A stretch of 64,000 nucleotides of DNA, taken from Rhodococcus sp. RD6.2 (GTDB lineage Bacteria > Actinomycetota > Actinomycetes > Mycobacteriales > Mycobacteriaceae). Within the stretch, counting starts at the first letter, position 1. Each line of letters starts with the position of its first letter. The position numbers were made by a program, and so were the translations under genes. This document shows positions 29,684 through 34,979 of this stretch, piece after piece. Below the pieces are notes generated by a model. That model made no database searches. It saw nothing but the letters and a program-made list of their open reading frames with translations, and was not told where the DNA came from. The stretch covers positions 1 through 64,000 of the forward strand of contig NZ_CVQP01000002.1 in the NCBI RefSeq assembly GCF_001040705.1, read 5' to 3'.

Positions 29684-31099
29684 TCAGGCTCCGTCCCGGA
29701 GCGCGGGCAGGTTCCTGTCGAACAGCCAGCCGTCCCACAGCGGCCGGAGCGAGTGATCGGCGAAGTGCGCCGCCAGGTCCGTGAAGTCCTCGGTCGTGAC
29801 GGTTCCGTACCGGTGCTTGGCGGTCCACCTGTGGAGCAGCGCGAAGAAGTTGTCGTCGCCGAGTTCCGTGCGCAGCGCGTGCACGGTGAGCGCACCCCGC
29901 TTGTAGACCCGGTCGTCGAACATCAGCGTCGGTCCCGGATCGCCGAGCACGAGGTCGTACGGCAGCCCCGACTGTGTCCGATGCACCTGGACTGCGATCT
30001 CCCGGGCGGTGGGGCCGCCGGAGTTCTCCGCCCACAGCCACTCCGCGTAACAGGCGAATCCTTCGTGCAGCCAGATGTCTCGCCACGCGCCGAGCGTGAG
30101 GCTGTTGCCGAACCATTGGTGCGCCAGTTCGTGAGCGACGAGCCGCTCCGATCCGCGCCTGCCGTCGCAATGGTTCGCGCCGAACACGGAAATTCCCTGT
30201 GACTCAACAGGAATCTCGAGTTCATCGTCGGTGACGACAACGGTGTAATCGGCGAACGGATACGGTCCGAACAGTCGGATGAACGTCTCCATCATCTTCG
30301 GCTGACGTCCGAAGTCGTGGTCGAATCGGGTGCGCAGACGCTGCGGCAGCACGGCGTGCATCGGCACCGACGTGTTGTCGGCGACCCGGCGCCGTTCGTA
30401 GTGGCCGATCTGGACGGTCGCCAGATACGTCGCCATCGGCTCGCTCTGCTCGTACACCCAGGTCGTGTGGCTGGCGCGAATCTGCTTGCGCACCAACGCG
30501 CCATTGGCGACCACATGGTAGGGAGAATCGGTGGTCACCGAAATCTGATAACTCGCCTTGGAGCTCGGATGGTCGTCGCACGGGAACCAGGACGCCGCAC
30601 CATTGGGCTGGCTCGCGACGAGGGCGCCCTCGCTCAGCTCCTCCCAGCCGACCTCGCCCCACGGCCCGCGGACCGGCTTCGGGGTGCCTGAGTACTGGAC
30701 CGTCACCGACAGTGCTCCGCCCGACGGGATCTTCTGGGCGGGTGTGATGGTGAGCTTGCCGTTCTGGTGCGTGTACTTGGCGGCGCGTGAACCGTTGACC
30801 GTCACCTTGGACACGGCCAGTGTCTGCGACAGGTCGAAGGCGAACTTGTTGCGCGTCTGCGTCGTTGCCGCTGTGATGATCGCCTTCCCCGACAGTCGGT
30901 TGCTCGCGACCTTGTACGTCAGGTCCAGTTCGTAGCGCGACACGCGGTAGCCCCGGTTGCCCGCCTTCGGCATGTACGGGTCGATCGGCTCCTCGTAGAA
31001 CTTGTTGCCTGCGCCGCCGGCGGCAACGGCTTTGGCAGTACCGCCGGTGGCAGCGGACTTGCCTGCACCGCCGGGGACGGCCATCTTGCCCGGTTTCAT
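29684..31099 (-). CDS. M1-family zinc aminopeptidase coupled to the Pls/PosA-like synthetase
   Basis: 471 aa, much shorter than PepN. A glycine/alanine-rich low-complexity N-terminus (to about residue 33) is followed by the beta-saddle domain and the thermolysin-like catalytic domain. Zinc motif HExxH-x18-E is intact: H323, E324, H327 and E346 in 'VAHELAHQWFGN' and 'LHEGFACYAEW'. The exopeptidase specificity loop is 'IPVESQGISVFG'. No signal peptide is evident. The ATG at 31099 lies one base after the stop of the synthetase gene, so translation is coupled. Known epsilon-poly-lysine-degrading enzymes of producer streptomycetes are zinc aminopeptidases of this type, so polymer processing is a reasonable inference. 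Confidence 0.9.
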   Translation of the reverse strand: MKPGKMAVPGGAGKSAATGGTAKAVAAGGAGNKFYEEPIDPYMPKAGNRGYRVSRYELDLTYKVASNRLSGKAIITAATTQTRNKFAFDLSQTLAVSKVTVNGSRAAKYTHQNGKLTITPAQKIPSGGALSVTVQYSGTPKPVRGPWGEVGWEELSEGALVASQPNGAASWFPCDDHPSSKASYQISVTTDSPYHVVANGALVRKQIRASHTTWVYEQSEPMATYLATVQIGHYERRRVADNTSVPMHAVLPQRLRTRFDHDFGRQPKMMETFIRLFGPYPFADYTVVVTDDELEIPVESQGISVFGANHCDGRRGSERLVAHELAHQWFGNSLTLGAWRDIWLHEGFACYAEWLWAENSGGPTAREIAVQVHRTQSGLPYDLVLGDPGPTLMFDDRVYKRGALTVHALRTELGDDNFFALLHRWTAKHRYGTVTTEDFTDLAAHFADHSLRPLWDGWLFDRNLPALRDGA

Positions 31100-31100
31100 G

Positions 31101-34100
31101 TCAGGCACCCGTCCACGGGCCGATCGGGTTGCCTTGCCATCGGGTGCTCGGCGGCACGACGTCACCGCGCATGACCAGTGAGGCCGGGCCGACCGTCGCG
31201 CCGTCGCCGATTCCGGATGCGGGCAGCGCGACGCAGTGCGGCCCGAGGGTCGCGCCTGCGCCGAGGGTGACGGTGTCCATGGCCATGATCCGATCATGGA
31301 AGAGGTGTGTTTGCACGACACATCCGCGTTCGACCGTGGCGCCGTCGCCGAGGGAGACCAGGTCTGCCTCGGGTAGCCAGTACGACTCGCACCACACGCC
31401 TCGGCCGATGGTCGCGCCCATTCCTCGCAGCCACACGTTCAGGACTGCGGTGCCGGTCGCGGCCCGTGCGAACCAGGGCGCCGCAACGGTTTCGACGAAG
31501 GCGTCCGACACCTCGTTGCGCCATACGAACGAACTCCACAGCGGGTGCTCGGTGCGGCCGATCCGGCCAACCGTCAGCCACTTCGCCGCGACCGAGATCA
31601 CACCGGCGGCGGCACCGGCGACCAGCAGCACGACACCGCTGAGGAGGGCCGCCGCCCAGTATCCGACGGCCCCGGCGAGCGCCTGCAGCGCGAACAGCAC
31701 ACCCAATCCGATGCCGAACGTCACCATGACCGGCAGCAGGCGGCACGTCTCGACGGCGGCCCTCGCGACCTTGAGTCGCGTCGGCGGCGCGAAGGTGCGC
31801 TCGGCGTCGCCGTCGCTGGCCGCGCGCCGCAGCTTCACCGGCGGACTGCCCAGCCAGGACGAGCCGGACTTCGCCTTGGTCGGTGCCGCCGACAGCACCG
31901 CGACGAGGCCGTTCTTCGGGACGCGGCGCCCGGGCCCGGCCATGCCGGAGTTGCCGAGGAAGGCGCGCTTGCCGACCTTGGCCTCCTGGATGTGGAGCCA
32001 TCCGCCGCCCAGTTCGTAGGACGCGACCATGGTGTCGTCGGCGAGGAACGCGCCGTCGGCGACGGTGGTGAACTTCGGCAGCAGCAGGACGGTCGACGCC
32101 TCGACGTCCTTGCCGATGTTCGCGCCGAGCAGTCGCAGCCAGACCGGGGTGAGGAGGCTGGCGTAGAGCGGGAACAGGAAGGTGCGCGCGGAGTCGAGGA
32201 GGCGTTCGGTCGCCCACACCTGCCAGCCGACGCGGCTGCGGACGGGGTGGTAGCCCTCGGTGAGTCCGATGCCGAGGGCGCGGACCGCGGCGACGGTGAG
32301 GGCGGCGAACACGAAGAGGGCGAGCAGCGTCGCGACGGGCAGCCACAGCAGTGCCCGCGGGACCGCGGAGCCGAGGTCGGGTGCGTCGGCGATCGCGGCG
32401 CCGATCACGGCGATGCCGGCCGCGAGGGCGATGATCGGCAGGGACGCGATGGCCAGCGACGTCAGGCCGTACACGGGAACCCACTGGCTGGCCTGCTGTG
32501 GTCGCTGCGTCGGCCACGGATGCTCGGCCTTGCCGACCTTGACTGCCGGTGAGCCGGCCCAACTCTGGCCGGCCTTCACGCGTCCGATGACGGCGGATCC
32601 GGGAGCGACCTCGGCGTTCTTGCCGATTTTCGCTCCGGGGAAGAGGGTCGAGCGGGAGCCGATGGCGGCGCCGTCGCCGATGCGGATGCCGCCGATGTGG
32701 ATGACGTCGCCGTCGATCCAGTGCCCGGACAGGTCGACCTCGGGTTCGACGGAGCAACCTTCACCCAGTTCGAGCATCCCGGTGACGGGAGGAAGGGTGT
32801 GCAGGTCGACGCCGCGTCCGATCGTGGCGCCGAGCGCGCGGGCGTAGTAGATCATCCACGGCGCGCCGGACAGGTTGGCGGCACCGCTGGCCTCGGTGAG
32901 CCGGTGCGCGACCCACAGCCGCAGGTGTTCGCGCCCGCCGCGCGGGTAGGTGCCGGGTTGCAGGCCGCGCAGCAGGATCCGGCAGCCCGCGACGGCGATG
33001 CCCATCCGGCCGATCGGCGTGATGAACAGGAGCACGCCGAGGAGCACCCACCACCACGACACCGCGGGCGCCCAGGGCACGTCGGCGAACCAGGCGAGGA
33101 CGTTGTTCACGACGGCCAGCCACGTCACCCACTGCAGACCGGTCAGGGTGGTCAGCGGGATCGTCCACAGAATCTGCTTCCACTGCGCCGACCGCGGTGT
33201 CGGCTCGACGGTGCGAATCTCGACGGCGTCGGTGGGGGCGAGGGAGTCGAGGTGTTCGGCGAGCGAACCCAGTCGGGGGTGGTCGTAGAGTTCGGCGACG
33301 GTGACCTCGGGGAATCGCTCACGCAACGCCGTCACGAGCTGCGCGGCCGACAGCGATCCGCCACCCGCGGCGAAGAAGTCGTCGTCGGCGCCGGTGATCT
33401 GTGCACCGAGGATCGACGACCACAGGCCCGCGACCCAGGCGGCGGTTCCGTCGAGTCCGGACTCCACGGCGGAGTCGTCGGCGCCCGGCAGCGGCCACGG
33501 CAGCGCGGCCCGGTCGACCTTCCCGGACGTTCGGGTCGGCAGCTCGGCCATCAATGCCAGGCGTGGGACGAGGGCGGCGGGCAGTTGCTCGGCGAGGAGG
33601 GTGCGTGCGGCCGCGAGGTCGAAGTCGGGGTCGGTGCTCGCGAGATAGCCGACGAGGATCGAGTGGCCCGTCGAGGTCTTCCGGACCGCGGCGGCGGCAC
33701 CGGCGACGCCGGGCAGGTTCTGCAACGCGTTGTCGACCTCACCCAGCTCGATGCGTCGCCCGCCGATCTTGACCTGGTCGTCGGCGCGACCCTGGAACAG
33801 CAGCCCGTCCAGTTCGAGACGCACCAGGTCGCCGCTGCGGTAGGCGCGTTCCCAGCCGAGCGACGGCATCGGCGCGTACTTCTCGGCGTCCTTCGCCGGA
33901 TCCAGGTAGCGGGCCAGCCCGACACCGCCGATGACGAGTTCGCCGACGTCGCCGACCTGGACCGGGTTGCCGTCCCCGTCGACGACGGCGAGGTCCCAGC
34001 CGTCGAGGGGGAGTCCGATGCTGACGGCGGACGTGCCGTCCATCTCGGCGGCGCACGCCACGACGGTGGCCTCGGTCGGGCCGTACGTGTTCCACACCTC

Positions 34101-34979
34101 GCGGCCCGGGGTCGCGAGCCGTTCCACCAGTTCGGGCGGGCAGGCCTCGCCGCCGAAGATCAGCAGCCGCACGTCCTCGAGGGCTTCGGCGGGCCACAGC
34201 GCTGCCAGTGTCGGGACGGTGGAGACGACGGTGATGTCGCGGGACACCAGCCACGGGCCGAGGTCCATGCCGCTCCGGACCAGCGAGCGCGGGGCGGGAA
34301 CGAGGCAGGCGCCGTGGCGCCACGCCAGCCACATCTCCTCGCATGACGCGTCGAACGCGACCGACAGGCCTGCGAGGACGCGGTCGCCTGGGCCGAGCGG
34401 TTCGCCCTGCAGGAACATGCGGGCCTCGGCGTCGACGAACGCGGCGGCGTTGCGGTGGGTGACGGCGACACCCTTCGGCGTCCCGGTGGACCCGGACGTG
34501 AAGATGATCCAGGCGTCGTCGTCGAGGGCCGGGGGGTGTGGTGTGTTCTCGCGGGCGGGTGCGGTGCCCGCTTCGACGCCCTTGCCGGTGAGGACGGCCG
34601 CGACCTGGGCTTCCCCGAAGACCAGGTCGGCGCGTTCGTCGGGGTCGTCGGCGTCGACCGGGACGTAGGCCGCGCCTGCGGCGAGCACGGACAGAATCGC
34701 GGTGTAGAGGGCGTGGGAGCCGGACGGCATGCGGATGCCGACGCGGTCGCCCGCGCCGACTCCGAGGTCACCGAGCCACTGCGCGCCCCGCTGGATCTCG
34801 TCGAGCAGTTCGGCGTAGCTGAGAGTGGTGTCACCGTCGTCGATGGCCGGGGCGTCGGGATGCGCCTGCGCGGTCGCGGTGACGATGTCGACGAGGGTGC
34901 GGGGTGCAGGAGCCAGTGGCGACCGAAGGTACGCGGCCGGGATCTGTTGGGAGCGATCCGAAGGTGATTGCAGGTGCAA
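31101..34979 (-). CDS. Pls/PosA-family membrane NRPS (epsilon-poly-amino-acid synthetase-like)
   Basis: 1292 aa. Domains: adenylation (about 25-495; 'IIFTSGSTGTPKGVAVTHRN', 'NTYGPTEAT', 'YRSGDLVRLELDGLLFQGRA', 'SGKVDRAALP'), a carrier domain (about 510-580; pantetheine Ser542 in 'FFAAGGGSLSAA'), then three repeats of membrane helices plus hexapeptide-type acyltransferase domains (starting near 600, 840 and 1080). This is the A-T-TM-C1-TM-C2-TM-C3 plan of epsilon-poly-L-lysine synthetase (about 1300 aa). Aligning the A domain by eye with GrsA gives the code D-A-E-S-I-G-T-V-V-K, close to a remembered bacitracin lysine code (D-A-E-S-I-G-S-V-C-K). L-lysine polymerisation is therefore the favoured hypothesis. 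Start TTG 34979 with AGAAGGA eleven bases upstream. Confidence 0.9.
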   Translation of the reverse strand: MHLQSPSDRSQQIPAAYLRSPLAPAPRTLVDIVTATAQAHPDAPAIDDGDTTLSYAELLDEIQRGAQWLGDLGVGAGDRVGIRMPSGSHALYTAILSVLAAGAAYVPVDADDPDERADLVFGEAQVAAVLTGKGVEAGTAPARENTPHPPALDDDAWIIFTSGSTGTPKGVAVTHRNAAAFVDAEARMFLQGEPLGPGDRVLAGLSVAFDASCEEMWLAWRHGACLVPAPRSLVRSGMDLGPWLVSRDITVVSTVPTLAALWPAEALEDVRLLIFGGEACPPELVERLATPGREVWNTYGPTEATVVACAAEMDGTSAVSIGLPLDGWDLAVVDGDGNPVQVGDVGELVIGGVGLARYLDPAKDAEKYAPMPSLGWERAYRSGDLVRLELDGLLFQGRADDQVKIGGRRIELGEVDNALQNLPGVAGAAAAVRKTSTGHSILVGYLASTDPDFDLAAARTLLAEQLPAALVPRLALMAELPTRTSGKVDRAALPWPLPGADDSAVESGLDGTAAWVAGLWSSILGAQITGADDDFFAAGGGSLSAAQLVTALRERFPEVTVAELYDHPRLGSLAEHLDSLAPTDAVEIRTVEPTPRSAQWKQILWTIPLTTLTGLQWVTWLAVVNNVLAWFADVPWAPAVSWWWVLLGVLLFITPIGRMGIAVAGCRILLRGLQPGTYPRGGREHLRLWVAHRLTEASGAANLSGAPWMIYYARALGATIGRGVDLHTLPPVTGMLELGEGCSVEPEVDLSGHWIDGDVIHIGGIRIGDGAAIGSRSTLFPGAKIGKNAEVAPGSAVIGRVKAGQSWAGSPAVKVGKAEHPWPTQRPQQASQWVPVYGLTSLAIASLPIIALAAGIAVIGAAIADAPDLGSAVPRALLWLPVATLLALFVFAALTVAAVRALGIGLTEGYHPVRSRVGWQVWATERLLDSARTFLFPLYASLLTPVWLRLLGANIGKDVEASTVLLLPKFTTVADGAFLADDTMVASYELGGGWLHIQEAKVGKRAFLGNSGMAGPGRRVPKNGLVAVLSAAPTKAKSGSSWLGSPPVKLRRAASDGDAERTFAPPTRLKVARAAVETCRLLPVMVTFGIGLGVLFALQALAGAVGYWAAALLSGVVLLVAGAAAGVISVAAKWLTVGRIGRTEHPLWSSFVWRNEVSDAFVETVAAPWFARAATGTAVLNVWLRGMGATIGRGVWCESYWLPEADLVSLGDGATVERGCVVQTHLFHDRIMAMDTVTLGAGATLGPHCVALPASGIGDGATVGPASLVMRGDVVPPSTRWQGNPIGPWTGA

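Follow-up and report, generated by a model that had tools for sequence, protein, structure and literature searches.

Epsilon-poly-lysine is an antimicrobial polymer from Streptomyces fermentation that is used as a food preservative. In Streptomyces albulus, the pldII gene is coupled to the synthetase gene pls through a 4-bp overlap, and two papers describe both the operon and the degradation of the polymer by PldII (PMC4361855, PMC9223678). Later papers that cite the original work locate PldII at the membrane's outer face (PMC9223678, PMC9205021).

A Pls protein from Corynebacterium variabile also makes epsilon-poly-lysine, as verified by heterologous expression in S. coelicolor from the S. 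albulus pls promoter, and the same paper lists Pls homologues from Rhodococcus (PMC8117764). In C. variabile itself, the polymer was undetectable and the Pls protein was not detected, and when C. variabile Pls was placed without the peptidase in C. glutamicum, the protein was seen and no polymer was found (PMC8117764). Because neither C. variabile nor C. glutamicum gave polymer, a pls gene alone is no guarantee of product, and because the latter strain lacked the peptidase, this enzyme is not the whole reason that some strains are silent. A Nocardia Pls has likewise been described (PMC4035055), and another paper includes an antiSMASH call of a polylysine cluster in R. erythropolis (PMC10819586). 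A term search of the main text of two additional papers (PMC11433410, PMC5550956) gave no occurrence of "lysine". The verified Corynebacterium enzyme and the published Nocardia and Rhodococcus homologues contradict an earlier note on the DNA studied here, which had regarded such a product as unusual for a mycolic-acid bacterium.

The window examined in this study is a 64,000-nucleotide stretch from Rhodococcus sp. RD6.2 (contig NZ_CVQP01000002.1, positions 1 to 64,000). It carries the following features, in which residue numbers refer to the Pls protein.

31101..34979, minus strand: pls, epsilon-poly-L-lysine synthetase homologue (1292 aa, TTG start; TIGR02353 and 7wew matches; code DAESIGTVVK)
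33909..34877, minus strand: adenylation (A) domain, AMP-binding match (residues 35-357; PF00501, 223.3 bits)
33249..33437, minus strand: thiolation (carrier, T) domain (residues 515-577; PF00550, 49.5 bits)
31122..33176, minus strand: Pls/PosA terminal domain with three hydrophobic (putative membrane) blocks (residues 602-1286; TIGR02353 positions 3-695; hydropathy)
29684..31099, minus strand: M1 zinc peptidase, PldII-like (471 aa; PF01433 and PF17900)

The synthetase and its predicted substrate

Judged by its domain matches, the 1292-residue protein is a member of the Pls/PosA family, with an A-T arrangement followed by the family's terminal domain. The earlier note had named TIGR02353 (the Pls/PosA family model) as a check on its reading, and the protein scores 754.5 bits with this model, above the cut-off of 423.1, which rules out a reading in which no Pls domain is present. 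A chance open reading frame is likewise ruled out by the HMM and PDB matches and by the existence of at least 591 related stretches. The likely attachment serine of the carrier domain is residue 542. Of the 83 aligned rows, 82 retain it; the other, 7wew, comprises the A domain alone and has a gap there. A Pfam search (E ≤0.001) found neither a condensation nor a thioesterase domain; the only matches were AMP-binding, PP-binding and two weak hexapeptide entries.

Three membrane-helix plus hexapeptide domains had also been proposed for the C-terminal half, and three hexapeptide-type domains are not borne out by the matches. A hydropathy scan, which gives occasional false positives (it also marks 90-109 within the A domain), finds three hydrophobic blocks that divide up the terminal domain at about 635-667, 833-908 and 1078-1138. 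Set against the Pls plan of three soluble domains parted by six membrane segments, the latter two blocks could each hold two helices, and the first (33 residues) is short for two. The hexapeptide matches are confined to one stretch (764-797) and score 25.7 and 19.4 bits, under the cut-off of 27.

Among the 122 PDB sequences matched at E ≤1e-10, the closest to the window Pls is 7wew, the A domain of the S. albulus epsilon-poly-L-lysine synthase (E 1.5e-194; 652 bits versus 398 for the runner-up). The match spans residues 8-500, with identity at 323 of 490 aligned positions. Alignment reproduces the ten-residue specificity code read in the earlier note, D-A-E-S-I-G-T-V-V-K, which is identical to that of 7wew at all ten positions and supports the lysine-type A domain suggested there. 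The same code is shared by 82 of the 83 rows, comprising the window, 7wew and all 80 named loci (the best 80 of the at least 591 related stretches, ranked by similarity to the window protein). It recurs in 70 of the 71 rows of a second alignment, including all 52 further loci, which were hand-picked, and hence non-random, to cover more family codes. This agreement is partly a product of selection, given that resemblance to the window protein determined the choice of the named loci, and that 49 of the 52 were found with the 7wew A domain and three with TIGR02353.

A study on the Acinetobacter baumannii enzyme PosA indicates that code position 2 sets the chain length of the substrate, with Phe in enzymes for DAP/DAB, Met in the ornithine enzyme PosA and Ala in Pls for lysine, and that Glu at position 3 binds the side chain (PMC10522769). 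Because the window code equals that of S. albulus Pls, with Ala and Glu as its second and third residues, lysine is the best prediction for the substrate. An A domain for a non-basic substrate was rejected on the code, that is, on sequence evidence. Perhaps the enzyme could instead build a polymer or short oligomer of ornithine, diaminobutyrate or beta-lysine, since the family spans several diamino acids and, in the same study, an M218A change in PosA raised activity with lysine (PMC10522769). We consider this very improbable because the window protein shares all ten code residues with S. albulus Pls and carries neither the Met nor the Phe seen at position 2 of the other enzymes. Furthermore, lysine synthetases have been reported in a peptidase-operon context, but none of the other three synthetases then known (PMC8117764).

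The one exception to the code among the 83 rows is a second Pls/PosA synthetase of the same genome (L087:8083-12099, minus strand, contig C5; 558 bits). Its code, DFEYLGTVTK, carries at position 2 the Phe that is seen in DAP/DAB-type enzymes. Downstream of this gene lie genes for a BPL_N-type protein and then for a protein matching HGSNAT_cat, and another BPL_N protein, with a hydrophobic leader, is encoded about 3 kb upstream.

The coupled peptidase and its linkage to pls

The sequence bears out both the 1292-residue frame and the placement of the M1 gene one base past its stop as described in the earlier note. The junction reads TGA-C-ATG, with the pls stop at 31103-31101 and the M1 ATG at 31099, although an alternative in-frame GTG at 31108 would turn the one-base gap into an overlap. 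A promoter scan, limited to the sigma-70-type consensus, found no candidate site, and a terminator scan gave nothing usable.

The peptidase matches PF01433 (92.1 bits) and PF17900 (63.0 bits) and has an intact zinc motif, HELAH-x18-E. Its nearest solved structure by sequence is distant (6a8z, a two-domain bacterial M1 zinc metalloprotease from Deinococcus; 474-aa chain, E 3.3e-47). As a stand-in for S. albulus PldII itself, we used an M1 protein from an S. albulus-like genome, presumably of Streptomyces, where it is encoded directly downstream of pls; the Pls A domain of that genome shows 93% identity to 7wew. Over 462 residues, this protein and the window peptidase share 41% identity, and the coupled M1 enzyme of the earlier note is thus related to the peptidases that follow pls in S. 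albulus-like genomes.

An M1 gene follows pls in the same orientation in 122 of 133 loci (76 of the 80 named loci, 45 of the 52 further loci and the window). The conserved M1 core begins no more than 250 bases past the pls stop in 116 of these 122, at a median of 38 bases. When the nearest start codon is taken, 72 M1 frames have a 4-base overlap with the pls stop and 21 a 1-base overlap; this rule favors small gaps, and we therefore rely on the core distance. The zinc motif is present in 121 of the 122 proteins, and in the exception (L081) it lies ahead of an apparent frameshift.

The remaining 11 loci show no nearby M1 gene, and the peptidase is thus not indispensable. One of these loci (L037) ends 29 bases past the pls stop. 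No M1 gene was found within about 6 kb in three Gordonia loci (L060, L069, L082) or within 2.5-3.2 kb in seven others (L130, L143, L144, L148, L149, L150, L151). Four of the seven (L144, L148, L149, L150) come from 2.3-2.9 Mb genomes of the window's own family that keep pls and have no M1 gene within about 3 kb. Tight coupling is absent from four loci, three of Tsukamurella and one of Gordonia (L026, L028, L031, L085), where the M1 gene starts 565-2746 bases past the pls stop. A contig labelled Acidobacteriaceae (L083) also carries pls and an M1 gene, and its M1 protein groups with those of Tsukamurella, so perhaps the contig is misassigned.

Nine neighboring frames of the window, two of which overlap on opposite strands, were compared with the 80 named loci (E ≤1e-15), which span about 6 kb on each side. 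Six match in none, and the other three have counterparts in 16, 16 and 13 loci. The pair, rather than its neighborhood, is therefore the unit, and we rejected the inclusion of the wider neighborhood because of the six frames without a match in the fetched loci. These data also bear on whether the peptidase could be a general aminopeptidase lying beside pls by chance. M1 enzymes are common and the 11 loci noted above lack a nearby M1 gene, but the M1 gene adjoins pls across many family codes, whereas most other neighbors are not retained, and the genome's two further M1 relatives are only 28% identical to the window peptidase. We therefore regard a chance association as quite improbable.

Pls-type proteins are widespread in the window's order. 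Of 298 genomes sampled from it, 139 have a TIGR02353 match above the cut-off; only such matches were counted because 13 of 14 control genomes give matches below the cut-off, and one control also passes it. A hand count found a strong match in 53 of 62 listed genomes of the window's family, a list that leaves out six matchless genomes. The closest named relative among the matches listed is from Rhodococcus tukisamuensis (85% in the best segment).

Export leaders among the pls-linked peptidases

Given the reported location of PldII, we searched for export leaders by a simple rule of our own that combines hydropathy with a twin-arginine motif and is not a trained predictor. The window peptidase has neither a hydrophobic nor a twin-arginine leader by this rule, and its 14-residue hydropathy maximum is 0.58, even when the longest frame is used. 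Three leader-bearing control proteins reach 2.31-2.69, and a regulator reaches 0.84. Although the M1 domains, the zinc motif and the adjacency to pls are all present, we call the protein PldII-like rather than PldII because no leader is found by this rule. On the same grounds it is predicted to be cytosolic.

A twin-arginine-like leader passes the rule in seven of the 122 M1 proteins (maxima 1.49-2.05), all of them from S. albulus-like loci whose Pls A domains are 78-93% identical to 7wew and which represent a subset of the S. albulus-like genomes matched with the 7wew domain. None of the other 115, including the window protein, satisfies the rule. When more upstream sequence was considered for these 115, two reached values above 1.2 (L122 at 1.34 and L038 at 1.64, the latter in an extended frame), neither with a twin-arginine flag, and the apparently frameshifted L081 protein gave 0.25. 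Loci L118-L124, which share a genus code with the S. albulus-like loci, are without a leader by the rule.

A peptidase tree places the seven leader-bearing proteins together on one side of a long branch (SH-aLRT 100). In a Pls tree (71 rows), the same seven loci also group together (88) and adjoin L151, which has no M1 gene within 2.6 kb. Both trees are quick searches, one built from 72 of the 122 peptidases and the other from 70 of the 133 Pls proteins, and with a long outgroup branch in the Pls tree and an unsure root, they are compatible with either gain or loss of the leader.

These results also bear on the possibility that the window peptidase works on the cell exterior, the site reported for S. 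albulus PldII, and gets there by a leader-free route to trim or destroy secreted polymer. The 41% identity to the S. albulus-like enzyme speaks for it. However, with no leader in the window protein and the rule passed only by the seven S. albulus-like proteins, we hold an extracellular site of action to be unlikely. The earlier proposal that the peptidase trims or detoxifies the polymer is upheld with respect to a coupled peptidase, but trimming or detoxification of secreted polymer has become less likely, and intracellular destruction of polymer is the more likely role.

A proposed make-and-destroy pair and its known counterparts

It is highly probable, in our assessment, that the window carries a pls-pldII-type operon in which epsilon-poly-lysine is made by Pls and cut by the coupled peptidase, most likely in the cytosol given that no leader is seen. 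The A domain would adenylate L-lysine and load it onto the T domain of the same protein, after which the membrane-anchored terminal domain would join lysines repeatedly through their epsilon-amino groups. The resulting epsilon-poly-L-lysine would be released, presumably to the outside by way of Pls itself. The M1 zinc peptidase, produced together with Pls, would hydrolyze the isopeptide polymer back toward lysine. In the cytosol, such cutting could protect the cell against polymer or short oligomers retained inside, or recycle them.

We also venture, tentatively and with more doubt than confidence, that an intracellular make-and-destroy pair is the common unit in most Actinomycetes bearing pls, with the polymer level set in the cytosol, and that the exported PldII of S. 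albulus-like strains is a secretion-linked special case. If the common peptidase does work inside the cell, then its accepted role in clearing secreted polymer would be confined to a small group. Furthermore, widespread and conserved Pls proteins in Rhodococcus and other mycolic-acid bacteria suggest alternative hosts for the polymer and raise the matter of its role in these organisms.

We found no paper that discusses a leader on PldII, and none on leaderless peptidase partners of pls, in a literature survey that was judged mostly by titles and the beginnings of abstracts. The two-gene unit itself is already known from Streptomyces and Corynebacterium, and the window operon is therefore not new in kind; what the present analysis adds is the presence of an M1 gene after pls in most loci examined, together with the predicted lack of a leader in most of the encoded peptidases.

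Compared with A. baumannii PosA, a delta-poly-L-ornithine synthetase encoded by a single-gene operon (PMC10522769), the window Pls belongs to the same enzyme class and has the same Asp and Glu as the first and third code residues, but the full codes differ (DMEHNGTVSK versus DAESIGTVVK). The C. variabile system, likened here by its description, likewise comes from a mycolic-acid bacterium and has Pls and a peptidase gene in an operon. The S. albulus pls-pldII operon shares with the window the A-T-terminal domain plan, the identical ten-residue code and an M1 gene immediately downstream. The two differ in that the S. albulus genes overlap where those of the window are separated by a single base, and in that the window peptidase, despite its relatedness to the S. 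albulus-like enzyme, appears to be without the twin-arginine-like leader of that protein.
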